From: Eunapius fragilis
Taxonomy: Eukaryota > Porifera > Demospongiae > Spongillida > Spongillidae
NCBI GenBank assembly: GCA_963681505.1
Contig: OY811974.1
Span: forward strand, 1,509,128 to 1,573,127
Length of the DNA: 64,000 nucleotides
Direction: 5' to 3'
Under the pieces are notes generated by a model. The model was not told the DNA's origin, did not search any database, and saw nothing but the letters and a program-made list of their open reading frames with translations. Each line of letters begins with the position of its first letter. The first letter of the stretch is position 1. A program made the translations under genes and the position numbers. This document shows, piece by piece, positions 2,810 through 46,195 of the stretch.

Positions 2810-2885
2810 TTGATGAAAGCACCCTACAATTGCATGATCGATTGATGAAAGCACCCTACAATTGCATGATCGATTGATGAAAGCA
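2810..2885 (+). repeat. Short direct repeat, about 33 bp x 2.5
   Basis: The block GATTGATGAAAGCACCCTAC followed by AATTGCATGATC is repeated next to the decayed end of the 13-bp array. It may mark the outer boundary of the foldback element. Confidence 0.8.
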
Positions 2886-3865
2886 GCCGATTTCGGGCGA
2901 TTGATTATTGACATGATTGGCGTTCCATAAGGTTCACCGTGCTTCATTCCTTATCAGTACCCGCGAGGCTTTACAGCACTGAGCAGTACAATTGAAGTGG
3001 TGGTCAATAGATAACAGTGTAATTCTTCCTCGTACACATTAGATATAGGTTCGGGCTTAGCAAACTTTTTACAACAGAACTGTACGTACCTCAGGTACAA
3101 ACTTAGTTGGGCCTGGGGCCGGGGTCGGCAAAATAAATTATCGTAGACTATCTATGAAATTATAAAACAATGTAAGTGGTCCTTTTGGCTGCTGCCATAC
3201 TGATAGATCCAACTCTTGGCACTTCTTGTGCTTGCAGGATTCTGGTGCCCTACCACCACTAGAATATACAATGGAGAGATGGCCAGCAGCGGACTTGTAC
3301 ATGTCATGTATTAAGCGAATCACGGCAGGGTACGACGTTTAAGTTACACAGTATAATATTTTACAGGTAACACATTACATGTATTTACATATGTGGGTCA
3401 TAGGAGCAGAAGGTATAATACATGTACATGCATGCATGCCATACGAGCCAGAAATAGTACTACTACTGTCGGGCAAAGGAAGCGACCATATCAACATTGT
3501 GGTTGTGCAGAGTACACACAACCCTAAAATCAACTCAGCCAGCCAAAGTAGCAGCTTATATACATGTACACACGTTCTGGGTGCATTACATGCACACAAC
3601 TAATCAACACATTCAGAGTTCTGTCCTCTGAGCATTAGCAGACTTCTTCCTTCAGGTCTCTTACGTGTTTAACATAAAGGATGACTGATCCCCAGATTGT
3701 TAATTAGAGGTGTTCCCTGGGAAGGTAAGCATATATTAAAATGATGATTTACCTTTTTAACACACTAACGTTACTACAGTGCTTCCTTTGACACATGATT
3801 TTAATATTGTCTATAAGGCTTCTTAGTGGAATTACCAAGTGTGCATCTATCAGAAAATGCAGGTA
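2886..3865. other. Non-coding stretch, nothing firm
   Basis: No convincing gene. A minus-strand open stretch at 3138-3323 could be an exon but matches nothing I know and lacks strong splice sites. Confidence 0.4.
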
Positions 3866-4860
3866 GTTGGTGCAGTCTCTACCTCATTTGTCTCTCCATC
3901 AGTGGCGGGGTCTGTTCAGTGGCCCTGATTATTTAGGGGGGTGGAGTCACACACCACACACACACACACACACACATAAACACACATACACACACATACA
4001 CACACACTACACACACACACCACACATACACACACTACACACACACACTACACACACACACACACCACACACACACACACACAGGTTCACGCCTTTCATC
4101 AAAGATGTAGAGTTTTCCCAGTGGAGTTAAAAAATAGCAACATGGGTTAACCTTTAATCCCCCGTCATCCTACGTGTAGGATTTACGCAAGTTTTTAGCA
4201 AACTCATATGAACAGAGAACAAACCAAAATCTCATCGTACCGTCGAAATGGTTATCAATTCAAAAAATACTAGTACTTTCTTGTAATTCTTCAAATATTT
4301 TCAAATACAGTCAATATTGCAGTGCTTAAAGATGTACTTTCGGTAAATCGCAAAGCAACTTCAAGTACCAACAAGTAATGTTGGTTAGAACAATATGTTA
4401 AAAGAAGGGGGGTCTTTTGCACTAAGCAAATAAAAAAGTAAATTGTAGATTTGGTTCCACAAGCATATGAACGATAGGTATTTGTCAGTCGCATGTTGCT
4501 GGAATAGCCAAGTGAATCGACAAAAACTTGAAAACGTACAGTGTGTTTTCGGTAAAAATGGCAAAACCGATTAGAGTTAGAACACTGCCATAGAATGTAT
4601 AAAGTAGCACACACATCATGCTTCAAAAAACATTCAAAAGATGTTTTACTTGTCGTACTTTTTTTGTGACAATTAAATTCTCCACATAATGCATTTTTAA
4701 GAACCGCATCCATTGGTAAATTTTGCACAATAGACACATCAAACAACAGTAGAGAAATGGATGCCAAAAACCTGCATTTCTGTTTATAATGAGATTTTCA
4801 AATATTGGTCCTACGCGTAGGACTTGGATCTGGGGAATTAAGGTTTAACCGGCCCCTATA
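3866..4860 (+). mobile_element. Dispersed ~1-kb repeat, copy 1, with AC microsatellite
   Basis: This stretch matches 54395-55350 in inverted orientation, from AGTTGGTGCAGTCTC to the TAGGAC palindrome. The internal part (about 4145-4855) has imperfect inverted ends, GGGTTAACCTTTAATCCCCC and the complement of AATTAAGGTTTAACCGG. Each is followed by a palindrome, CCTACGTGTAGG or CCTACGCGTAGG. An AC/CA microsatellite fills 3953-4083. A minus-strand ORF at 4291-4767 has no recognisable domain, and the other copy interrupts it. TTAA at the ends hints at a piggyBac-like element, but this is weak. A poly-A run follows at 4861-4881. Confidence 0.65.
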
Positions 4861-19600: not shown

Positions 19601-21045
19601 TTAATATGAGAGGTCATCTTAAAACCATTTCAATAAGTACACATTAGTGATTGTTAATAATCATGTATTATCTGTGCATTATAATATTACCTTTGCAAAC
19701 ATATTCAGATAGTGTGTACCCAGGCAGACAGGTACAATAGAATGATCCAATGGTGTTGGTACATATTTGGTTACATGGACCCAATCCTCCATTTGGTAGG
19801 CATTCATTGATGTCTAGCATTAGAAGCAATCATTATTACAAAGCATACAACCTTCATTCAAAATCGCAAAAAAGTACATACGCAAATTAAGCTTAAGCCT
19901 ATCATGCATACCATTGTAGACATATCCCGACAGATTGTATCCAGGCTGACAGCCACAGTAGAATGATCCAATGGTGTTGGTACATATCTGTGCACATGGC
20001 CCTAATCCTCCATTTGGTAGGCATTCGTTGATATCTGCATAGGATGAAGTTATATGCTTTGAAATAATAGTTGTGTGCTGTTTAAACTCACCTATGCAGG
20101 TCTCATTATCAGATGACAGTTGATAGCCAGGATTGCACAAGCACACATAGCTACCAATAGTGTTATTACACAGCTGGGAGCAGCCACTACTGCCGATAGC
20201 ACATTCATCAATGTCTGAATGCAAGGTAAAGTGCAATGGTCACTGCTCAGCTCATATGTATACAGTGGCACAACCTGCGCTGCAGTGTCATCGTAACAAT
20301 AATAACTAAACACATATAAAGGACCTTAACACATGTGCAATACATAGACAAAGATGAATTTGTTTATTTTATAGCATGTTCCACACCATTGCAGGTATAT
20401 CCCGATAGGGAATATCCAAGTTGACAACTGCAGTAGAATGATCCAATGCCTCTATTTGGTAGGCATTCATTTGTGTCTTTAGGTTATAGGGTAAAGTGTA
20501 AGTTTACTCACTCACACCTGAACGCACATCTTCATAGTATCTCACCATTGCAGCCATATCCAGATTGTGTGTATCCAGGCTGACAGCTGCAGTTGAATGA
20601 TCCAATGATGTTTATGCAAGTTTGGTTACAAGGTCCATGTCCTCCATTTGAAGCACACTCATTGATATCTACATGGAGGACAGTTACATGTAAGTAGTTG
20701 CAGCCTATAGATATATTAGTGCACCATTACCACAATAAAGCACCTGGTTTTAATAGGTTTATGTTAACCCTAAATACATGTACGTGTGAAGCAATGACCC
20801 ATTTGTAAGTACCATTACCATACAAAGAGTACCCTGAAAAATAGCTCCAATAGTAGGACCCAATTGTGTTGGTACTAATGTGATCATATTTTCCTATCAT
20901 CGGTACCACATGAATCAATTGCTAGTGCCTTCTGATTGGAGATCCGATGTAGGAAACATACAAAGAGCAGGTATCATAATATTCGACAGAGACGGACTGG
21001 CTTACAAGGACGTTTTGACGCGAGCAGGGTGGAACAGTTGTCACA
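16667..21045 (-). CDS. Multi-EGF single-pass receptor with tyrosine-motif tail
   Basis: A type-I membrane protein, read right to left. The array of EGF exons is uniform: each intact exon is 123 nt (41 residues), flanked by phase-1 introns, with the calcium-binding form D-I-N/D-E-C...C.C.PGY. Intact exons: 20546-20668, 20092-20214, 19912-20034 (last Cys changed to Tyr), 19691-19813, 18759-18881, 18511-18633, 18331-18453, 18125-18247 and 17904-18026. Then follow 17393-17493 and 16923-17335, which encode a Cys-containing membrane-proximal domain and a ~25-residue helix ([20 protein letters not shown]) with a KLRRR stop-transfer. The last exon (16667-16814) gives a ~49-residue tail with YSTIGP and DPIYMNL. 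The 5' end is unresolved; an exon ending near 21045 may belong. The ligand is unknown. Adhesion or recognition is a plausible role (inference). Confidence 0.8.
19032..19145 (-). pseudogene. Degenerate EGF exon 1
   Basis: 114 nt with splice-like borders, but with Cys-to-Tyr/Trp changes and an in-frame TAG just before the donor. Inclusion would truncate the receptor. Confidence 0.8.
19291..19413 (-). pseudogene. Degenerate EGF exon 2
   Basis: An EGF-like exon with two Cys lost (GWSQIS in place of GCSQLC). The 3' splice acceptor AG has become AA, so it is probably skipped. Confidence 0.8.
20387..20476 (-). pseudogene. Shortened EGF exon, 33-nt in-frame deletion
   Basis: The exon is 90 nt instead of 123. 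Eleven residues containing two Cys are missing, yet both splice sites and frame are kept. It could be included to make a defective EGF module, or skipped. Confidence 0.75.
20813..20921 (-). pseudogene. Degenerate EGF exon 3
   Basis: 109 nt, with a 14-nt net loss, a frameshift and an early TGA. It is the counterpart of the degenerate exon at 19032-19145 in the other duplicated block. Confidence 0.8.
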
Positions 21046-32031: not shown

Positions 32032-32379
32032 GTGCACACACACAGAAACTAAGAAGAACTAGAGCTTTGATCGTTGCTGATTGTGGTTATGTGCGTGTAA
32101 CCCCCTCAGTTTTCGCCCCATTACGCCGCTGAGCTGCAGATTAATTGGCCATGCAACCAGTATCAACTTTATCTCGGCTGATCTGTAACCGTGTGCGCCA
32201 CTGTTGAATTTATTATTGAGACTTTCTAAAATCAGTCACATGCAGGCCGTGCCAGTCGAGTCTATTCAACTGCATCATAGATAGATGGTACTATCCGATG
32301 GAAAAGATTTGGCGTCAAGAAAAGAAGGTAAATTCATGTGCTGTTTATAACTAGATTTTCGTGTAGGGTAAGAAAACAC
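30961..32379. other. Intergenic stretch with AC microsatellite
   Basis: CGCA/CA repeats at 31963-32044. A short ATG stretch at 32287-32331 ends at a donor-like GTAAAT, but no partner exon was found. Confidence 0.4.
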
Positions 32380-32946
32380 GCTATAGAGCTCTTTCATCGC
32401 GTGATCCGTAGCAGCAATCATGTGATATGTTACACGGCGGTCTGCTCTCATTGAACGCGTGGAAACTAGGCCCTACGCCCCAAAATATTGAAATGGCTAC
32501 GTAGTCCCATAGCAACGAACCTAGCAACCGATGTCCTGTAGAACAAGCTGTGCACGAGGTACATGAAACGTAATCAACACCTAAAAGCCATACTAGCAGT
32601 GACAAACACCTCTGACCTTTATTGTAGGCATAAATCACGTGCCCTGGCGTTGCGAACTGTTGGCTCTGGATCTTCGAAAGCTATTGACTTACGCACGGTG
32701 AACACCGACCACGTGTGTTCAAAAAAGGATAACGACCCTCGGTGACTGAGATGGAACATGCCGAAACTATTACGGTAAAGTTCGTTGAATGTACTGTCGT
32801 TTTCTGGTACACGTTAATGGCGACATGCTTTCTGAAATAGTTTTCAAGCCTTTGAAAATCCACCATTTTTGTGTCATTTTAGGGGTGGAGAATATTTGCG
32901 CAATAAGGTTTGATTTGACTTCATGTTGATATGTATATAGATTGAA

Positions 32947-35900
32947 TTACATAGCTACAGTATTCTTTACTCTCTTAGCCGGAGGAGGGATGGCAGCTAC
33001 CAATTGTGGCTCAATACTTAGTAAGTGTTCTTTCACAATGCACTTCAGGTTCTGCACCCGGTCTTTAATGGGAGCAAATACCAAGCCAAGTTGATTAAAC
33101 TTGGCATGGATTGACTCGGCTCCTTGTTCACCCAGGAGGCCAAAGCCAACGTGATTACTATTCGCACACTGTGACGTGTGATCCTCTAGTAGATGCATTT
33201 TAATTGGGACTGTTGCCTCTGGATATGTGTCTCGGAAAAAGGCCATGAACTCTTGAATAGCCTAGTTAGTTATAATGGAGCATAAAGTGAACCCTACATG
33301 TACACTGAACATTGTTAACTTACCAGGTCTAGTGCATGTGCTTGTGTCACATTAATGAAGTTCTGATCACATATATTGTGACATTTTCCATACAAGGAGA
33401 ATGCGGTGATGAACTTAGTCACTTGATCAGCTACCTCTCCAGATCGGTGAGGCAGTTTCTCTTGTGCCAACTGAGATATAGATGTGCACAGAGTCTGGAT
33501 GTTTGGTACCTAATAATTATTTAAGCGGTATGAATTATTCATATCTACATGTATAGCACTTTATATAATTACCTTCAATGCCTTGTGTACATGGTTGCCA
33601 ATAAATGCCCCCCCAAAATACTGCTGTCGTTGAACTCCAAATGATTGTAGTGCACTGTCAAGTGTCTTGACAAAGGGCCCTTCTTTTTCAGAGTACCCTC
33701 TTTTCACATTTGCTGTGCATTTGGCCACTTCTGCTTCCTATTATAACTAACTTGAATACAATTGTGCATGTTGGATAATGACTTACAAGTGCCTTCACTG
33801 ATCTCTTTTTTGCAGCAGATTGCTTCAAAAGATCCACAGCAAGAGGGTTTTTCTTTCCATGGACTAAGGCCACATATGTTGCCACCTGCTGCAACACTTC
33901 ATGTGCATGCTGGGCAGCTTCAAGGTCTGCTTGGAGCAATGGAAGCCTTTGCAGTGCCTGGCTGTACTTGGAAAAACTGGAGGAGTCGAAATCAGTTGTT
34001 TGAGATGTTAGTTCCAAGTCCAGTTGACAGCATAGAGCTTCCAGCAGATGGAACATCTTCGTGAAGATCCCCAACATGATGTGGAGACCAGGTGGGCAGA
34101 CCTGTATGGTGTAATTTTGAATAATTGTAATGTTGGATTCATTTACCTGTGAAACAGGGATGTCAAAAATAGGTTCTGAGATGCAGTTGAAGAACATCTG
34201 TGCATCCTTTTTAACACTCCCTGATGATACATAGCACTGGTGGTCAGCACACATATCCTCTAGTGACCTTTCTTTGGCATGCCCTCGAACGATTAGAGGT
34301 GTAGCCATCTGGTCACTGTGAATTTTGCAGTATAGGCAAGGGTAGCATCCTATTGCATGGTCATCATTTCACATCATGCTTGCATTTAAGTATACTACTG
34401 CATACCACTGGCTCCTGACAAGCCATACATCTTTGACAGGAACTCGTAGTCACCACATATAAACACCTTCACTGTGTATTGCCTGTAATTTATAGCACTT
34501 GTATATTTAACATGATTTAGGTATAGAGCTCTTACCTCCACTACATTCCATGTAGATGTTCTACTTGATCTTTAAAGCGATCAAGTGCCACATGGAGGTT
34601 GGTGACGCTGTCACCAGCCGCAAAACAGCTGAATACACAGGTGTTATGGACTGAATTGGGTGTGGCAACATTTAAAATCTGAAAGGTCATCTTAAATGTT
34701 CCACCCCCCTTGTCTCCTCCAATCTTCAACCAGATCTCATTGGCTGGTATAAACCCTTCATGCCAGGTAAGCCTGTCAGTTCTGCAACCATGTTTTAACA
34801 ACCATTGTATTTCACTGTCTTACCATTTCCCTGTCTTACCTTTCATTCCCTTCCAAGAGCTGCACAACTTTATCCACCAGCTGTGGAATGTATACCAAAG
34901 GAGCTCCTTTGATTTCCTCTCCACCAGATGGAATTGGAAATGAAAACGGGGCTATCTCTCCCTTGAGGTTATCACCAACAATTTGGCTGGAAATGTGGCG
35001 CATCCTTTCCTCACCAGCCAGACAGATGCCTGACGATTTGAGCCACCTGAAATAGCAGTGAGCTAGAATTGGTACCTTTGATGCATGATGTGACATACCG
35101 CCTCAGAAGCCTCAGTTTATTCCAAGGTATGGCAAGTCCTGCCTTAATTGCCAATACCTGAGCTGCCCCAAGCTCAATCGATGATGAGATTCCTGCCTTA
35201 TCCAACAAAGATCGCCTCTCTTCCTCGCTAAGGATGAGGACCTCTTTCTGGATAAGTGCAGATGCTTCTCCACCACTGACAATGCCTCGGATTGTCTGCA
35301 TTTGAGAACATTGCAACTTTACAGTCCGCGAGCAGGCAGCTGTGGTTTCTTGGTGAGCTCTGGTAACACGCATGAATGTCATTGGCTAAAGTGTGTGTAG
35401 ATATTGTGTAACCTCAGTACAAGTCAATGACATTCACTTAACTGTTCCTCCTGTAGGAAGTTGTATGATGCCTTTGTCAGGACTGGTAGAGATGGCCCTC
35501 TTCAGCAATCCCGCTGCTTGCTTCTCCTCCTCAGGTGTAAGTGATGGTACACAGTCATGCCCTTCGTAGTCACCAGCCTTAATATCCCTGCTGCAGTCTG
35601 TACAATTTACCAGAACATCCGATAGCAGGAGGAGTATCACACCTGGTGCTTGTCTGACATGGGAGGGAACCAAGGGACCATCCTCCGAGCAGCAGGGACA
35701 GTTCACAGCACCTGTTGCGGCTATCCACTCCGGGAGGCACTTGACACATACCAGTGCACCACACTGCAGTTCCAGTGGCTGTGAGAGGATGTTGGAGCAC
35801 AGTGCACACTTCAGCTCCTTTAACATCAACTGGTTGTTCATGCTTGCCAAAGGTGGACTAGGCTCACGTAAGAGAACTGGAGGAGGGGCAATCTTCTCAA

Positions 35901-36352
35901 GATGAGCTATTAATAAATTAGGTGTGAAGCCTGCCTGACGACCTCTACGAACTGTTGACCTCCTCTTGTGTCCACTTGAGCATGCATGGAAGTGCTCACA
36001 TACCTAAGCACCATGATGTCATATGTTTGTTTACTTAAAGCCTATGTGTACTGTTTACCTTGCATTCTTGGTCTGTATGTTTTAGCCAATTAAATACGAT
36101 CACTGCACATTTATAATGGACTCCCTTTTCGATGGCACTGATGGTTCTCTGCATTGAGAGCTGACATTGCTTGCAAAACATCTCTGGGTGAATGTTTACA
36201 TCATCCCCAGACGTGTCGATGTCAAAAGCAATTTTCAGCTCAGCTGAGAATACTTTGCACTCATAGCTAATACCCTTCTTTGCCCTGTACTTCGTTAGCC
36301 TCTGCCCACAAACTCTACAATGTATGGGAACTTGTTGGTTGTGGTAATCCAT
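32947..36352 (-). CDS. RAG1-like protein, probably of an N-RAG-type transposon
   Basis: Eleven exons: 36059-36352, 35443-36003, 35099-35385, 34840-35046, 34536-34781, 34406-34482, 34147-34349, 33787-34101, 33573-33737, 33324-33509, 32947-33261 (about 950 residues). The N-terminus aligns by eye with vertebrate RAG1. The zinc-dimerisation part has CRVCG, then IHPEMFCKQC, then WLKHTDQECK/VCEH, its C-x2-C completed across intron 1. Next come a RING (CALCSNIL...CGALVCVKC...CPCC), a finger (VNCTDCSRDI..YEGHDC) and a TGGTP/TRA segment. The core has KIGGDKGGG (first catalytic Asp), GDYEFL..MYGLSGASG + CYPCLYC (zinc site) and GEQGAESIHAKF (final Glu). The Asp708 position appears to be LHIML, so an acidic residue is missing there. 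A stop precedes the donor of exon 5 (34541-34543). Such N-RAG proteins are known from a mollusc transposon (N-RAG-TP). No RAG2-like Kelch gene is nearby. Confidence 0.8.
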
Positions 36353-36836
36353 ACCTATAATCATGTATACATGTACATGTAGGGACAAACCACAACACAT
36401 GCCGATTATTCATGCAATTCGCTCAGCTTGTTTGTGGTGATAGAAAACGTGTCGCCACATTAGGTTTGCCAATACTTATAGCCACATGCCTCCTGACCAT
36501 CGCTGCAGTATGCTTACCTTCCAGCTCGGTCACCAAAGGCCACGTTGTCTAATTTAGTAACGCCCCCCCTTCTAATTACGTGCCGCGTGGCCTTATGAAA
36601 CGGTATGCGCATGCTATCTATGTGGGATGTGAATTGTGCGCATCTATTGGACATGCCAGGAAAGGGAGTGCAGTGTTTGGGCTCGTTGTAATTTTTTGAT
36701 TTGCTCGTTCTGCTGAGTCATGGTCACTTTATAAACATGGGATGTCTATAATGAGGCATCTTTTTAAGAATGATGTGTTAATACCGTAAATGATCTAATT
36801 ATAGACCTAGTTTCCAGCCGCATACAACCGTGGTTA
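36353..36836. other. Upstream region of the RAG1-like gene
   Basis: No TATA box or ORF stands out. It contains the 20-bp block at 36809-36828 shared with 24479-24498. Confidence 0.4.
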
Positions 36837-36899
36837 GTTGACGTAATCAATTATCCGCCATATTGGTGCTCGGGTATTCCGCTCTTTTAAACGTAAAGC

Positions 36900-37165
36900 A
36901 TGTCAAAGCTGTCTTTGTATGCAGATAGCTTGCCTCCAGATGCAAAGACTCGATATGTGGATAAAATCGAAAGCATTGGTGGGTTAGATCCGTTCTCATC
37001 TGACTTCGTTGGAGAAAAATCGGACGTTGTACCACCAGTTAGTGGATGCGATTTGGTATCGTATTTAGTATTGCAGACCAGTTTTATAACTAGCAAACAG
37101 TTCAAAGCCCATAAATCTCTGGAGGCTTATAACCAGTTTGTTAGTGGATGGGTGAAAGACATACT
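36900..37165 (+). pseudogene. N-terminal fragment of a SWIM/YqaJ-type transposon protein
   Basis: The ATG reading frame has the DP...YLV...FKAHKSLEAYNQFVSGWV pattern that opens a large family of invertebrate transposon-borne proteins with SWIM zinc fingers and a YqaJ-like exonuclease. Homology stops after GWVKDI, where the frame runs into the antisense of the THAP gene. The SWIM and nuclease parts are absent. Confidence 0.55.
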
Positions 37166-38056
37166 ACAAACGCACATCGTCTCGGTGGACATACCCCCGC
37201 TACTTTCATTCCGCTCACTATCCACAGCCTTTGACTTTGCCGCAACTCCTGGTACACTGCACTTTTTATTCGCATTTTGTTCTCGCTTAGTAGCTGCGCG
37301 CCGTCTTTTCGAGTACCTAAGGAGCCGTTCAATGTCGCTGTTACTTGGGCTTTTCTTACATATACCCGGAAGATCCAGTGAAGACAGCCAATCTGGGACT
37401 AATTCACTATACAGTGACTGCGCTGGTTTGCCCTTGATGAAGGGCAGGGAACATATCCGAGCGTTATAAAGTGACGCCGAGTCTTTACGACCGATTGCAG
37501 CCAGGAAGCCGTTCCTTCGTCTCTGTGACAATTCTAGCTCATATTCACCATACTGGGCTCTTACTTTAGGTATCCCGTACAATCTTGTGCCCTTGCCTAC
37601 CATAGAATTGGTCAAACAATGGTCGACAACGCCAGCCCCGGATCCAGGATTTGGCTAAGGGGGGGGCGGTTTTACTGGAGGGGCGGCACATTGACAATGA
37701 ATGCATGCGAAGCCAGGGGCGGATACAAAAAGCCGGGGGGGGGGGGGGGGGGGGGGGGGGGGTGCTGTCCGTTTTAGGCCCGATCCAAAAGCTGGGGGGG
37801 GGGGGGGGTGCTGTCCGTTTTAGGCCCGATTCAAAAGCGGGGGGAGGGGGGGGGGGGGGGCTGCTTGCCGTACGATGACTTATATCTTGGTTTGTGCGCG
37901 CGTGCGTGATAGTGCGTGGGGAATGGAGCGGGGGGGGGGGGGGTGGGGGGTGGGGCGGCAATTGGTCCCAGAGGGCGGCATTTCGTATGAATGGGGGGGG
38001 CGGCCGCCCCCCCCGAGCCTATGCTGGATCCGGGGCTGGACAACGCAGACTCCCAT
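37166..38056 (-). pseudogene. THAP-domain gene split by a hAT MITE
   Basis: The first codons, encoding MGVC (38047-38056), are separated from the rest (37624 downward) by the 406-bp insertion 37633-38038. Without the insert the frame reads on as C-x4-C, then GIPKV, RRRNGFLAAI, ICSLPFIKGKP and PDWLSSL, the order of a THAP zinc finger. The last zinc ligand, normally His in the CSLHF-type motif, is Pro here, so the finger was probably weakened before or after the insertion. The remainder is basic and ends near 37166. Confidence 0.75.
37633..38038. mobile_element. hAT-type MITE with perfect 8-bp target duplication
   Basis: The ends CAGCCCCGGATCCAG and its exact complement define a 406-bp element. 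GACAACGC is present at 37625-37632 and 38039-38046. The interior is G-homopolymer rich (37734-37860 and 37930-37960) and contains a second, nested CAGGGGCGGATAC-type end near 37717. Confidence 0.92.
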
Positions 38057-38100
38057 ATCAGCCGAGCACCAATATGGCGGACACGATAACGTCATTACAT

Positions 38101-38574
38101 TTACGTGATTAATTGCTTTTTGTCATGTGACCATGAAAGAGCTCTATAGCAGGATTGTCCCCAAGGAAGAAACATCATGTGTTTGTCAAAACATCGTCAC
38201 GCCTGCTCTGTTAAGGTATACATATTGAGGAGATTGACATATTTGTAGAGTAGGTGTTTTGCCATATCGATTGGGCAGTATACTAGTAAGACACGCTATA
38301 CTAGAAGTGCATGGTGTGCGAATCGCAATAGCGGTACAATTACATTTTTTGTTCGCTTGGCCAGGGAAGGAATAGAAACATGGGCCAGGAGCCATTGTTT
38401 TTCAAGAATTGTAAACTGTGACTCAGACTGGAGAATGTCCCTGATGTATGCTTAGGGTGTGGTGAGGAAAGTCACTGAGGTACATGTATGGGGAGTGCTG
38501 AGGAAGCCTGCTGCATGAGGTATAGTTAGGAGGTGGGGAATACAGTATGTTTTTATTTTTAAAAATGCAAACAA
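38101..38574. other. Intergenic stretch
   Basis: Nothing coding is recognised. It contains the right half of the 18-bp inverted pair described at 32380-38150. Confidence 0.4.
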
Positions 38575-41054: not shown

Positions 41055-43011
41055 ATGGAAAGCGGTTCAGAACGAAGCGACGCCGGCGAGCTTGCACCTC
41101 CGGCAGCAGATCCTGTCCGTAAACGACCCCGCCGTGAAGCGCTTCAGCTACGTCTGGCTGACTTTCCTGCAACGCAGCGTCAAATGACACTGCTAAAGGC
41201 ATTCCTGCAAGAACCTTTGTCGGAGACGCGTCGAACCGAACTGCTTAGCAATATAACCGTTCAGGCAACTCAACGACGCCTTTTGAGTAAGTCAGTCGAT
41301 ATATTTATTGCATGTTGCAGTGATGATATCTCTACATGCACCCGCCCAATGCAGCTTTCTTGGGATACGTGCACAGCCGACACCCTAGTACTGAACCCGA
41401 CATGACTCAAGTCACAAATGTTGAACTGTTGAGACTATTTTTAAAATTCATGGAGGCATGTTCTATACACTTCGTATACGCAACGTGCATTATACTCTTT
41501 ATATAGGACGAGAGAAGGTCAGCTCCAGGGACGCTGTCCACCTACTGCCAATCTTTTCTGCACGCCATAAACTTCATGGCGACCAGCAGCGACTGTGCCG
41601 CTACATGTAATATCGTCAGAAACTGGTTAACCTCATACCAGAAAGCTGCTCACCGGGCTAGAGACGTTTCCTGGCAAAGGCTGAAAGCCAAAGGTGAAGT
41701 ATATAATATATAATATCATTATAAATTTAAATTCATATAATAATAATGATAATTATAATTATAAATATATAATATATATACATACATGCACGTTTCAATT
41801 TACATAAATTTTTTTTTAATGTTCGTATATATATATATACAGGGAAGTGGCTCATGTGGTCCAAAGTTCTGGACGTTTTAAAACTACAGAGAGAGCTCTA
41901 CGAATCCGCCGCTTCCACTTTCAGCAGGGGGTGGGAGTCTCAAAAATTCACTGTCCTGTTGTTGTACTGTGCTATCCCACCGGCGAGGGGTCGCGAATAT
42001 CGACAACTCAGGTACACTTTTACCGACGAGGACCTGCAACTCTGGGCACCTCCTGATACGGCACAGTCAAATTGGCTTCTTTTAAGAAACGACCATTCGC
42101 GTGCGTTGCTGTATATTGGATCGCATAAAACATTCAGGCATACTGGACTGCAGAGGATTGAACTGTGCGCAGAAGGCTCGACGAAGCTGTTGCTAGAGCA
42201 GTTGATTGCCTTTGTCTGCCGAGACAGGCCGGTACTCGTTCAAGGGCGTACGCACGACTATCTCTTCGTGGTAAGATTATTGAAATTGATAAACAATTGC
42301 CCCTGTTAATATAATTATATACATCTCTCACAGAACCAGGAAGGTCAACAGTACGATACTTCCGATAGCTGGACCAAATACTTGCAAGCTATCTTCAGGC
42401 AGCACAAAGACGTCTCGATTTCCACCAACGCCATGAGAGCGTCATACGTGACACACCTCTTGAGCGGGGAAGCTCCTCTGTCAGACCACATTTTGACTCA
42501 GGCTGCGAGGGCCATGCGCCATTCCAGGAAAGAACAGGCACGGACGTACGACTGCAGAACTTCTTCAGATAAAGTTGCCCACGCCGTACAACTCTCTTCC
42601 AAAGAGGCTGCATCTGCATTAGGCGATCGAGTCTCCGATGTGGAACCATCGACGTCCGGCGGGAACTCGAAAAAGAAGAAGCTCCTCCCTTGTGTGGGCG
42701 ATATTGTAGCCCTTGTCGAAGAGAGATCCACCAGAGATGAGCCCGTCGTAATGTTGGGCAAAGTTTTACGCCTGTACCAGGATAGCCAGGAGGTATTACT
42801 AGCCCATCTTCGTCTCGTGGAAAAGAGTAGGAAGTCGAGCCCCACCTACAAATTAACCATTGGAAAAGACGCTTGGGTCGAATCCTACGATTCGCTGGTC
42901 TTCCCCGTGGACGTCGCCTACGACTCCGCGAGAGGCGTTTACTCTCTGCGGACGCCATCGACAGAGATTCACGACCACGTCCACAACGGACAGGATTCGG
43001 ATTCGGACTGA
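41055..43011 (+). CDS. Crypton-like tyrosine recombinase
   Basis: Five exons with consistent phases: 41055-41286, 41355-41473, 41507-41693, 41843-42270, 42334-43011, encoding 547 residues without interruption. The N-terminus has a basic nuclear-localisation-like RKRPRRE. Exons 2-3 give a helical, core-binding-like region. The catalytic part has box-I Arg in IPPARGREYRQLRY (about residue 228), Lys in IGSHKTFRH (about 275), TNAMRASYVTHLL (Arg about 357, with Asn where His is usual in HxxR), His in AMRHSRKEQ (about 386) and the nucleophile Tyr in ARTYDC (about 395). The C-terminus (LPCVGDIVALVEE...SLVFPVDVAY) resembles a small BAH/SH3-like barrel and ends in an acidic tail. Expected function is DNA cutting and joining through a 3'-phosphotyrosine. 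It could instead be a domesticated gene. Confidence 0.82.
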
Positions 43012-43195
43012 TGTTAAAATTCTTCTCATATGTATATATATATTATATACAGTTTTCCTCTTGTCTTTTTCTGTAAAATGGGGGGGGGGGGAAAGAAAAG
43101 GAAATAAAAATAGTTTTAACATGCGCACAATATATATTTAATTCATGCGCAACTAATTACATTAATCATTCCACGTTGCGACCACAAATTCGATT

Positions 43196-46195
43196 ATGGC
43201 TACATCTACAGAAATCCTACAACATCTGCGGGACGATCTCGGCTTGATCGATGCATCGCGTTTGAGGGTCACGCTGAGGACCATCCTTGACCAGGTGACC
43301 CTATGGCTGAGGCAATTGGAGACACCATCACCCGCACCTCGCCAAGCTCAACCATCTTCAGCTACTCCTCCTGGGAGGAAGAGGCAGCGGTCTCAAGGAG
43401 GTAGTAGGAGGGAGGCCCCATTACCATCAAGGGAGCTATCACCACCAGCTTCACCCCATCCATCACCCTCGTCACCTGCAACGGCAGAGGCAGCCTCACC
43501 ACCACCACCACCATCACCCTCGTCACCTGCAACGGCAGAGGCAGCCTCACCACCACCACCATCACCCTCGTCACCTGCAACGGCAGAGGCAGCCTCACCA
43601 CCACCATCCCAGTGCAGGGCAAACACCGTAACCTCATATAGACCTACAACATCTTCCTGGGCCGGCTCAACCAAGGTGATGCCCCTGGAGCCCTGCATAG
43701 CCACCTCGAAGGCGGACATACTGGTGGACAGAGCATGTGAACGGCACCCAGAATGGATGCATAGGTTTTTCATACATCTGGCCAACAGGCCTAACACGCT
43801 GGCACAGGAGGGTGTGGCTGGCATGCTGGAGTGGTCCCTGCCTTTACCTGAAACAGTGGCTGAGGCACTAGAGCAGGCGACCACACTCCTGACCATTCCA
43901 AACGCGGTCAAGGTCATGGCATGGTGGAAGCTGGGCGAGATCCTCCGGGCTTGTGTTGGCGACGATGAGGTTACACCTGCGAAGCTGGCAAATGCAGCCA
44001 ACGAGGCCAAGGACGCCATGTATTGCCAGTTGGTGGAAGAGTGTGCTGCAGGTGGCTGCGTGGACTGCCTTGGGTTCTCTGCTAAGACTCGCCCCTACCC
44101 ATGCAGGTCCACGCAGTTCACCTTCAAGATGCTGCAGCCGCTCTCCACCAACCTCACCGTGTCCCACCTTGAGGCTTGCAAGAGATTGTCTACCAAGGTC
44201 CAGCCTACAAGCCCCCTGCTCACGTCGGGGCTATTCCTGCCATCCTCCTTAAAGAGGTTTGCGACCCATTCAATGGACGGGATTGTGAGGTGGAATGCTG
44301 TCCTGGGGATTGGTACACCGCCTCCACAGCCCCCTGGACCACCAACACTTCTCCCGCCCCAGCCCCATGGACCACCCACACCTGTCCCCCCCCCTGGATC
44401 GTCAACAGCTGGCCCGCCCCAGCCCCATGGACCACCCACACCTGTCCCATCCCCTGGATCGTCAACAGCTGTCCCGCCCCAGCCCCATGGACCACCCACA
44501 CCTGTCCCACCCCCTGGATCGTCAACAGCTGGCCCGCCCCAGCCCCATGGACCACCCACACCTGTCCCATCCCCTGGATCGTCAACAGCTGTCCCGCCCC
44601 AGCCCCATGGACCACCCACACCTGTCCCACCCCCTGGATCGTCAACAGCTGGCCCGCCCCAGCCCCATGGACCAACGACACCTCTGCCGCCCCCTGGATC
44701 GTCAACAGCTGTCCCACCCCAGCCCCATGGACCAACGACACCTCTGCCGCCCCCTGGATTGTCAACACCAACGTCTTATCGGCTGAGTGCTGGGTACTCG
44801 CCAGTAGTTGCAGTCCAGTACGTCGACGGCGATGGGGGCGTGCTGATCGCAGAGTATTTTCGGGGCCTTCTGGATGTGGCACTTAAATACAGAGTGCCCT
44901 GTCAGAAGATACAGCCCCATGGCCTGACTCTGGTGGCCTTTCGTGAGCCTGGTCACGATACACCAGAGTTGGGCCATGTGTACCAGCTGGGCACCACAAC
45001 TGACAGCGCAGGCCCTTCCTCCTCAGCATGCACCTCCACCACCTGCACCAGTACCACGAAGGTGCCTTTTGGGTACCTGGCACTGGTACATGCCAGGAGG
45101 CAGATGGCCAAGTGCGATTCGGTGGTGGTAGTCCCTCATGGGGAAGATGGAAGCGGGAGACGGCTTGTGGTGGAGGTATTGAGGACCAGCAGGTCCGACA
45201 CTGTGGACCCCACAGTGCCCACCGGGGTTGGCAGGATCTTGGCCGGCCTGAGTTATCCGGTTGAAGGCGCTCCACGGCAGTACCACCTCGCCTACCAGCA
45301 GGCAGTGACGGCACGTCTTGGTCTCCATAGGTTTAAAATCCTTGGAGATGAAAGGGTGCTACCGAAGGCTCTTAAAGGCCTTCTTACGGGGAAAGGGGCA
45401 CCAGCGGTCACACTCGAGAACCGTAGCCTCAACGAGGTGTGCACCATCGTGCAAGACACGACGTACCTCAACGAGGCAAACATCCTCGTCCTGCCATCCA
45501 CCATCGAGGGGGCAGGCCTGGCGCTCTTCCTGAGGCCAACACCAGCAGGCCGGAAAGACTATGCCATCCCAAGAGGACGCCGCCTGTGCCAGTATTCTGA
45601 CAAGGTTGTGGGGGAGGAGGAGGAGGTCAGTAACACTGACTACTGCCTTGACAGGGTGGAGGGAGCGAGGAGGATCACATGGAACCCCCTGCATCCAGAC
45701 GGGGCCAACCTTGGTAGATACATCAACCAAGGTGGCCTCGTCGAAGGACTGAGGGCTCTGATCTCCTCCTGCGACAGGACCAGTGGGGCTGGATCATTCT
45801 CCCCCAAGGAGGCAGAGGCAGTGTTTGCCCGGCACTGCAATGTTACGTACAAGTACGTCAAGGAGCCAGCACCAGGAGGACGTGGCCACAAGGACACGCT
45901 TGTGGTGACCATGGCGAGGGACACAACATCGTCCAGTACCCATGCCATAGAGTTACTGGGCAACTATGGCATCGGGTACTGGATACCCTATGTCCTTAGC
46001 CACCACCAGGAGTGGGGTAATGACCACACCCTGGTCACCCTGGTGCTGTGGCTACTGTTGGCCGACAACAGTGCGATGGAGTTGAGCGTGAGACAAAAAT
46101 TCCTCACCGGTTATGATATCGCCCCGGCAACCTATGCCATTTTTAAGGACATGCCCTGCCCCTGGACCACCACTACCAGAAGATGCAGGCATTAG
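43196..46195 (+). CDS. Intronless 999-residue SET-domain protein
   Basis: Residues 1-50 are a leucine-rich helix-forming start. About 80-140 are Pro/Ser repeats with three copies of an ASPPPP...SPSSPATAEA unit. About 180-375 is a novel Cys-containing domain. About 380-522 hold seven 20-residue PQPHGPPTPVPPPGSSTAG-type repeats (60-bp DNA repeats). The C-terminal ~240 residues look like a SET domain: STIEGAGLALFL near 768, GRYINQGG near 840 (the FINH-like site) and AIELLGNYGIGYW near 918 (the EEL..DYG-like site). SET domains usually methylate lysine using SAM. Here the Asn-His pair reads INQ, so activity is uncertain. It lies 184 bp downstream of the recombinase, same strand, with no splice sites needed. 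Confidence 0.75.
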   Translation: MATSTEILQHLRDDLGLIDASRLRVTLRTILDQVTLWLRQLETPSPAPRQAQPSSATPPGRKRQRSQGGSRREAPLPSRELSPPASPHPSPSSPATAEAASPPPPPSPSSPATAEAASPPPPSPSSPATAEAASPPPSQCRANTVTSYRPTTSSWAGSTKVMPLEPCIATSKADILVDRACERHPEWMHRFFIHLANRPNTLAQEGVAGMLEWSLPLPETVAEALEQATTLLTIPNAVKVMAWWKLGEILRACVGDDEVTPAKLANAANEAKDAMYCQLVEECAAGGCVDCLGFSAKTRPYPCRSTQFTFKMLQPLSTNLTVSHLEACKRLSTKVQPTSPLLTSGLFLPSSLKRFATHSMDGIVRWNAVLGIGTPPPQPPGPPTLLPPQPHGPPTPVPPPGSSTAGPPQPHGPPTPVPSPGSSTAVPPQPHGPPTPVPPPGSSTAGPPQPHGPPTPVPSPGSSTAVPPQPHGPPTPVPPPGSSTAGPPQPHGPTTPLPPPGSSTAVPPQPHGPTTPLPPPGLSTPTSYRLSAGYSPVVAVQYVDGDGGVLIAEYFRGLLDVALKYRVPCQKIQPHGLTLVAFREPGHDTPELGHVYQLGTTTDSAGPSSSACTSTTCTSTTKVPFGYLALVHARRQMAKCDSVVVVPHGEDGSGRRLVVEVLRTSRSDTVDPTVPTGVGRILAGLSYPVEGAPRQYHLAYQQAVTARLGLHRFKILGDERVLPKALKGLLTGKGAPAVTLENRSLNEVCTIVQDTTYLNEANILVLPSTIEGAGLALFLRPTPAGRKDYAIPRGRRLCQYSDKVVGEEEEVSNTDYCLDRVEGARRITWNPLHPDGANLGRYINQGGLVEGLRALISSCDRTSGAGSFSPKEAEAVFARHCNVTYKYVKEPAPGGRGHKDTLVVTMARDTTSSSTHAIELLGNYGIGYWIPYVLSHHQEWGNDHTLVTLVLWLLLADNSAMELSVRQKFLTGYDIAPATYAIFKDMPCPWTTTTRRCRH
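44338..44760 (+). repeat. 60-bp coding repeats in the SET gene
   Basis: Seven in-frame 60-bp copies (CCCCAGCCCCATGGACCACC at the core). Alternate copies carry GGC/GTC and CCA/CCC variants in an ABAB order, pointing to 120-bp higher-order expansion. Confidence 0.95.

Follow-up and report, generated by a model that had tools for sequence, protein, structure and literature searches.

A Chapaev-group DNA transposon whose transposase has a RAG1-like N-terminal part in the genome of the sponge Eunapius fragilis

The transposase gene and the state of the window copy

The window analyzed here is a stretch of 64,000 nucleotides of contig OY811974.1 of Eunapius fragilis (assembly GCA_963681505.1), and positions are counted from its first letter. 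On the minus strand, from 36352 to 32947, 11 exons can be spliced through GT-AG introns without a frameshift into a protein of 948 amino acids (aa). Exon 1 (36059 to 36352) contains the start codon and a RAG1-type zinc region (Chapa/RAG1_imp_bd), and exon 2 (35443 to 36003) contains a RING (aa 164-203) and the zinc finger that follows it, to about aa 250. The putative catalytic aspartates lie in exon 5 (34536 to 34781; D473, together with a DUF1280 domain) and exon 6 (34406 to 34482; D540, together with a GLSGASG block), followed by a C-x2-C motif (C559 and C562) in exon 7 (34147 to 34349) and a GNHVH motif in exon 9 (33573 to 33737). Exon 11 (32947 to 33261) carries an H-x4-H motif (H867 and H872), a terminal acidic region, GEQGAES (aa 888-894), recognized by motif comparison, and the stop codon. 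Exons 3 (35099 to 35385), 4 (34840 to 35046), 8 (33787 to 34101), and 10 (33324 to 33509) follow from the splice model and are conserved in related copies. A preliminary description had taken this locus for a full-length RAG1-like gene; the multiexon gene and its RAG1-type N terminus were confirmed, but the product is a Chapaev transposase encoded in a multicopy transposon.

In the first 11-exon model, which supplies the residue numbering of D473, exon 5 ended at 34545. Sister copies continue nine bases past that donor, to a GTAAG-type donor, and sequence comparison makes this longer exon the likely true end in the family; the donor at 34545 was rejected as the family donor, as it was present in none of the 15 other copies read. 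Those same 15 copies (nine near-identical ones and six from related families) all have a sense codon at the place, at the end of exon 5, where the window copy reads TAG in frame (34541 to 34543, minus strand); two further loci, in which the match was misplaced, were left out of this comparison. On contig 1, two sister copies showed open frames over all exons when these were delimited as in the window copy, and the nine extra bases added no stop to either of them; a third sister copy (contig 19) carried numerous stops as well as indels in its first three exons. The window copy is, therefore, probably dead, unlike the family, which probably is not. However, the GT used in the first model could bypass the TAG, so that the window copy might still be expressed. 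The 11 exons of the first model splice cleanly, but by way of a donor that is absent from all 15 other copies and skips the TAG.

Element ends, copies, and insertion site

The real unit at the locus is an element of 4400 bp at 32433 to 36832 (minus strand), of which the gene is a part; its other genomic copies begin and end at the same points, and we annotated it as a whole Chapaev DNA transposon with CAC..GTG ends. It is flanked on the left (32429 to 32432) and on the right (36833 to 36836) by GTTA, read as a target site duplication (TSD), and a single GTTA is present in uninterrupted sites. The left terminus (32433 to 32470, plus strand) begins with CACGG and has an inner TGGAAACTAGG block at 32460-32470, and the right terminus (36806 to 36832, minus strand) reads CACGG...TGGAAACTAGG as its reverse complement, the two forming an imperfect inverted repeat. 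A DNA search with window positions 32200-36900 as the query gave at least 88 matches in the sponge's own genome (219 Mb, 24 contigs); copy counts from this search are lower bounds, with 40 of 510 candidates scored. At least 11 copies, including that in the window, span 32433-36832, 10 of them running through both ends and one (C21) falling 6 bases short, and the ten copies other than that in the window were 95 to 99% identical to it. The left terminus was common to all 11 copies read, with few differences, and the right terminus to 10 of the 11. All 11 started with CACGG, 10 finished with CCGTG, and the TGGAAACTAGG block recurred, inverted, close to either end. Among the 11 copies whose two ends were read, 7 had perfect 4-bp target duplications, which differed in sequence from copy to copy; the flanks of C2 and C6 agreed in three of four bases, C18 had no duplication, and C21 had lost its right end. 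The CAC..GTG ends and the short TSD are those of a Chapaev. A 4-bp TSD is a hallmark of Chapaevs, a point for which our literature search met no support.

Additionally, three copies on contig 9 (C9:8806532-8807986, C9:5929243-5930697, and C9:4899601-4901055) each consisted of two pieces of the element, identical in extent in all three (query positions 2848-3471 and 3785-4633), at 95 to 96% identity. They are possibly nonautonomous derivatives or a duplicated stretch.

When the flanks of the window copy were joined with one GTTA, the resulting sequence was found uninterrupted in at least 40 other places (40 of 56 candidates scored) at 93 to 99% identity, and all of these matches spanned the junction. 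Thus, the Chapaev copy is a precise insertion into one unit of a different high-copy repeat, and the high identities among copies suggest that the jump was recent. The ends of this older repeat, identified by a repeat search and by the joined-flank matches, lie at 32380 to 32397 (plus strand) and 38133 to 38150 (minus strand) and are complementary in 18 of 18 positions. The Chapaev copy is nested in this inverted-repeat element (32380-38150), whose left part occurs at at least 40 near-identical places. Two pairs of inverted repeats were rejected as Chapaev ends because they lie outside the element: 32380-32397/38133-38150, which belongs to the older repeat, and 36854-36873/38062-38081, which falls within it. 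The body of the older repeat contains open reading frames (ORFs) at 36897-37469 (plus strand) and 37127-37654 (minus strand), which by eye we take to resemble YqaJ- and THAP-type pieces; the pieces of them that were searched gave no Pfam match at an E value of ≤0.01. The ORF at 36897 was ruled out as a partner gene, since it lies outside the Chapaev element. Long G-rich stretches were observed at 37740-38020, also inside the older repeat. Elsewhere in the window, adjacent long plus-strand ORFs at 41773-46195 have the look of a further mobile element; one of them encodes 1009 aa and contains proline-rich repeats, and their pieces at 42310-43008 and 43166-46192 had no Pfam match at an E value of ≤0.01. 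EGF_CA domains detected with Pfam on the minus strand at 19820-20239 mark a probable host extracellular protein. In the whole genome, 7 Wnt matches scored above the cutoff, apparently at three loci; Wnt genes are specific to animals, and a small Wnt set together with short introns would suit a sponge host.

The two parts of the transposase and their joint history

In phmmer searches against the PDB, aa 2-247 matched RAG1 residues 120-372 (9jpu_A/6oem_A) with an E value of 3.8e-8, the best of 81 sequences, and aa 2-104 alone matched RAG1 chain 21wb_A with an E value of 5.9e-5. In the 948-aa protein, the Pfam family RAG1_imp_bd (PF12560) was found at aa 40-118 above its cutoff (E = 5.5e-7), and three RING models matched aa 164-203, all under their curated cutoffs (best E = 6e-4). 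The RING stretch was also matched, more weakly, by TRAF2, RNF8, and TRIMs in the PDB, and the RING alone is therefore not RAG1 specific. Taken together, the Pfam and PDB matches show that the N-terminal resemblance noted at the outset is real, with the zinc region, the RING, and the next finger all following RAG1. A Chapa-type zinc domain was recognized through PF12560 and the RAG1 chains of the PDB, not through a Chapa model as such, and the RING lies within the RAG1 match. A fold of exon 2 alone, computed without an alignment, had a mean pLDDT of 32 and was discarded.

The core of the protein behaved differently in these searches. DUF1280 (PF06918) was matched at aa 452-527 (hmmscan against Pfam; E = 4.4e-13, 49.8 bits versus a cutoff of 25) and by all five members of a core alignment, A1, made of the window copy and four relatives. 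Beyond RAG1_imp_bd, the RING models, and DUF1280, no other Pfam family matched the 948-aa protein at an E value of ≤10, the RAG1 core family PF12940 being among those without a match, and PF12940 had no match across the genome either, in a search that yielded nothing in the control genomes as well. Searching the PDB with a core profile built from A1 brought up no chain of RAG1 at an E value of ≤10, and in the phmmer search with the whole protein any RAG1 homology of the core was below significance. When a 13-row core alignment, of which 7 rows were left after filtering, was compared with the mouse RAG1 core in hhalign, the score was 21.0, and 1 of 20 shuffled controls scored as high; the best block paired GDYEFL..GLSGASG..C-x2-C with D708..C-x2-C of RAG1, the same block that the preliminary description had named. 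The order of motifs (D473, D540, C559-x2-C562, H867-x4-H872, and E889) is that of RAG1, with C559 19 residues after D540 and E889, in GEQGAES, 17 residues after H872; in RAG1 the second D and the first C are residues 708 and 727, likewise 19 residues apart. All seven residues were invariant wherever covered (10 to 18 of 18 rows, many of which are close copies of one another), with C559 and C562 each invariant in 16 of 16 covering rows and H867 and H872 each in 11 of 11. The core agrees with RAG1 in its motif order, but none of the sequence tests identified it as RAG1: the hhalign score was matched by a shuffled control, and PF06918 was found in place of PF12940. The identity of the core is based on one Pfam family over 76 residues and on the motif order. 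DUF1280 corresponds to Chapaev transposases, which fall in one clade with RAG1 (PMC3985635, in its excerpted text), and together with this equivalence the DUF1280 match identifies the core, at the level of sequence, as that of a Chapaev and only a remote relative of RAG1.

DUF1280 was matched at least 131 times in the genome, with two matches falling in a single gene in some cases (150 of 168 candidates scored). Among 18 copies, the divergence of aa 1-285 and that of aa 381-727 were strongly correlated (r = 0.96 across all 153 pairs, including many between near-identical copies), and relatives with 34% identity in the N-terminal part and 42 to 48% in the core retained both parts. The joint divergence and the presence of both parts in distant relatives indicate that the joined architecture is old in this genome, as opposed to a fusion of recent date. 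FastTree trees built separately for the N-terminal part and the core were not wholly alike and disagreed at two nodes: whether L038 or the clade of the window copy is nearest the distant families (support of 0.998 for the core and 0.89 for the N-terminal part) and the placement of L008 (0.74 and 0.35, respectively). An exchange of parts between families is possible. No relatives were confirmed in the viral contigs and genome contigs collections.

Interpretation and relation to known systems

We interpret the window locus as one copy of a Chapaev-group transposon, a DNA element of the cut-and-paste type, lodged in an animal genome (probability of about 0.95). The exact ends, the 4-bp duplications, the near-identical copies, the uninterrupted target, and the domain matches were seen directly. 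The gene is not a RAG1 orthologue but a member of a kind of transposon that is already known. Its transposase combines a Chapa zinc domain, a RING with a finger, and a D/D/E-type nuclease core with C-x2-C and H-x4-H. By analogy with related enzymes, it would bind the CAC..GTG ends, excise the element by means of D473, D540, and a glutamate of GEQGAES (E889 or E893), as in RAG1 and Transib, and join it to the target with a 4-bp stagger, while the RING may serve as a ubiquitin ligase like that of RAG1.

The excerpted text of Kapitonov and Koonin 2015 (PMC4411706) describes Chapaevs with Chapa, RING, and core and draws from them an inference for RAG1 assembly. Chapaev, Transib, and RAG1 have been grouped by their C(2)C and H(3-4)H motifs in a clade, CMCT, which mostly has CA..TG ends and duplications of 2 to 5 bp (PMC12730594, in excerpt), and the window element fits this clade in its CAC..GTG ends, its 4-bp TSD, and the presence of both motifs between the second D and the last E. 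With the RING-bearing Chapaev subgroups as excerpted from PMC4411706 it shares Chapa, RING, a DUF1280-type core, CAC..GTG ends, a short TSD, and multiple copies, whereas it has 11 exons and was matched here to no named family. Vertebrate RAG1 and RAGL/ProtoRAG have in common with it the N-terminal zinc region, the RING and finger, and the order of core motifs, but the window core is not recognizably RAG1 by sequence, and its TSD is 4 bp, not 5 bp. Transib shares the D/D/E residues with C-x2-C and H-x4-H (PMC12730594) but has a 5-bp TSD and, in its canonical form as given in the excerpts of PMC4411706 and PMC7204232, is without the N-terminal domains. The Aplysia N-RAG-TP likewise places a RAG1-like N-terminal part in a transposon, but, in the accessible portion of PMC8355894, that part only, whereas the window gene adds a core. 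RAGL transposons have N-terminal fingers with a ring in molluscs and without one in a jellyfish (PMC7204232, in excerpt). The view that known transposons reach no further than the N-terminal part has been superseded by the Chapaevs with Chapa, RING, and core of PMC4411706; a joined N terminus and core were indeed found on one gene in a nonvertebrate, but the point about RAG1 assembly was published in 2015, and, as Chapaevs and RAGL elements with both parts are on record, the key point of the preliminary description was already known. A weak literature search met no report of sponge Chapaevs with a RAG1-type front; among 12 of 762 matching papers, none contained the term Chapaev. In another set, PMC5745447, PMC10379824, and PMC4298943 contained both Chapaev and a term starting with "sponge", which in PMC4298943 is the transposon name Spongebob.

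A true RAG1-like gene of the RAGL/ProtoRAG type that had lost its RAG2 partner would account for the N-terminal similarity, the RAG1 order of motifs, and the equal D-to-C step, but it is very unlikely: PF12940 was matched neither by the protein nor by the genome (with the control silent), the core profile found no RAG1 chain in the PDB, DUF1280 was matched by the protein, and the TSD is 4 bp and not the 5 bp reported for Transib and, in experiments, for RAG1/2 (PMC8355894) and for TransibSU (PMC4411706). As for a RAG2 partner, PF03089 had no match in the genome, but the same search gave nothing in the control genomes either, so that a RAG2 gene may have escaped it. Still less probable is the recent fusion of an N-RAG-TP-type element, which in the accessible text of PMC8355894 is wholly RAG1 N-terminal-like, to an unrelated core; the disagreement of the trees at two nodes would suit such an origin, but the correlated divergence of the two parts and their joint retention in distant relatives argue against it. 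The least credible reading, suggested by the many introns, is that of a host gene present once and domesticated from a transposase; it was refuted at this locus by the copies of the element (at least 11), by the ends and TSDs, and by the uninterrupted target; the in-frame stop in the window copy also speaks against it.

The Chapaev-group transposon thus adds one more animal genome in which Chapaevs bear the front end of RAG1 on one transposase, and it fits the published view that the zinc domain, RING, and core of RAG1 came together within a transposon long before there were vertebrates. The window element alone leaves the account of the origin of RAG1 unchanged. As a low-divergence multicopy family with open-frame copies, it is useful for testing Chapaev transposition. 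There is a slim chance that the family is a Chapaev branch whose N-terminal RAG1 part and core are nearer than those of the described Chapaevs to the lost TransibVDJ ancestor; if so, its presence in a sponge would place the joining of the RAG1-type parts as far back as the root of the animal tree.
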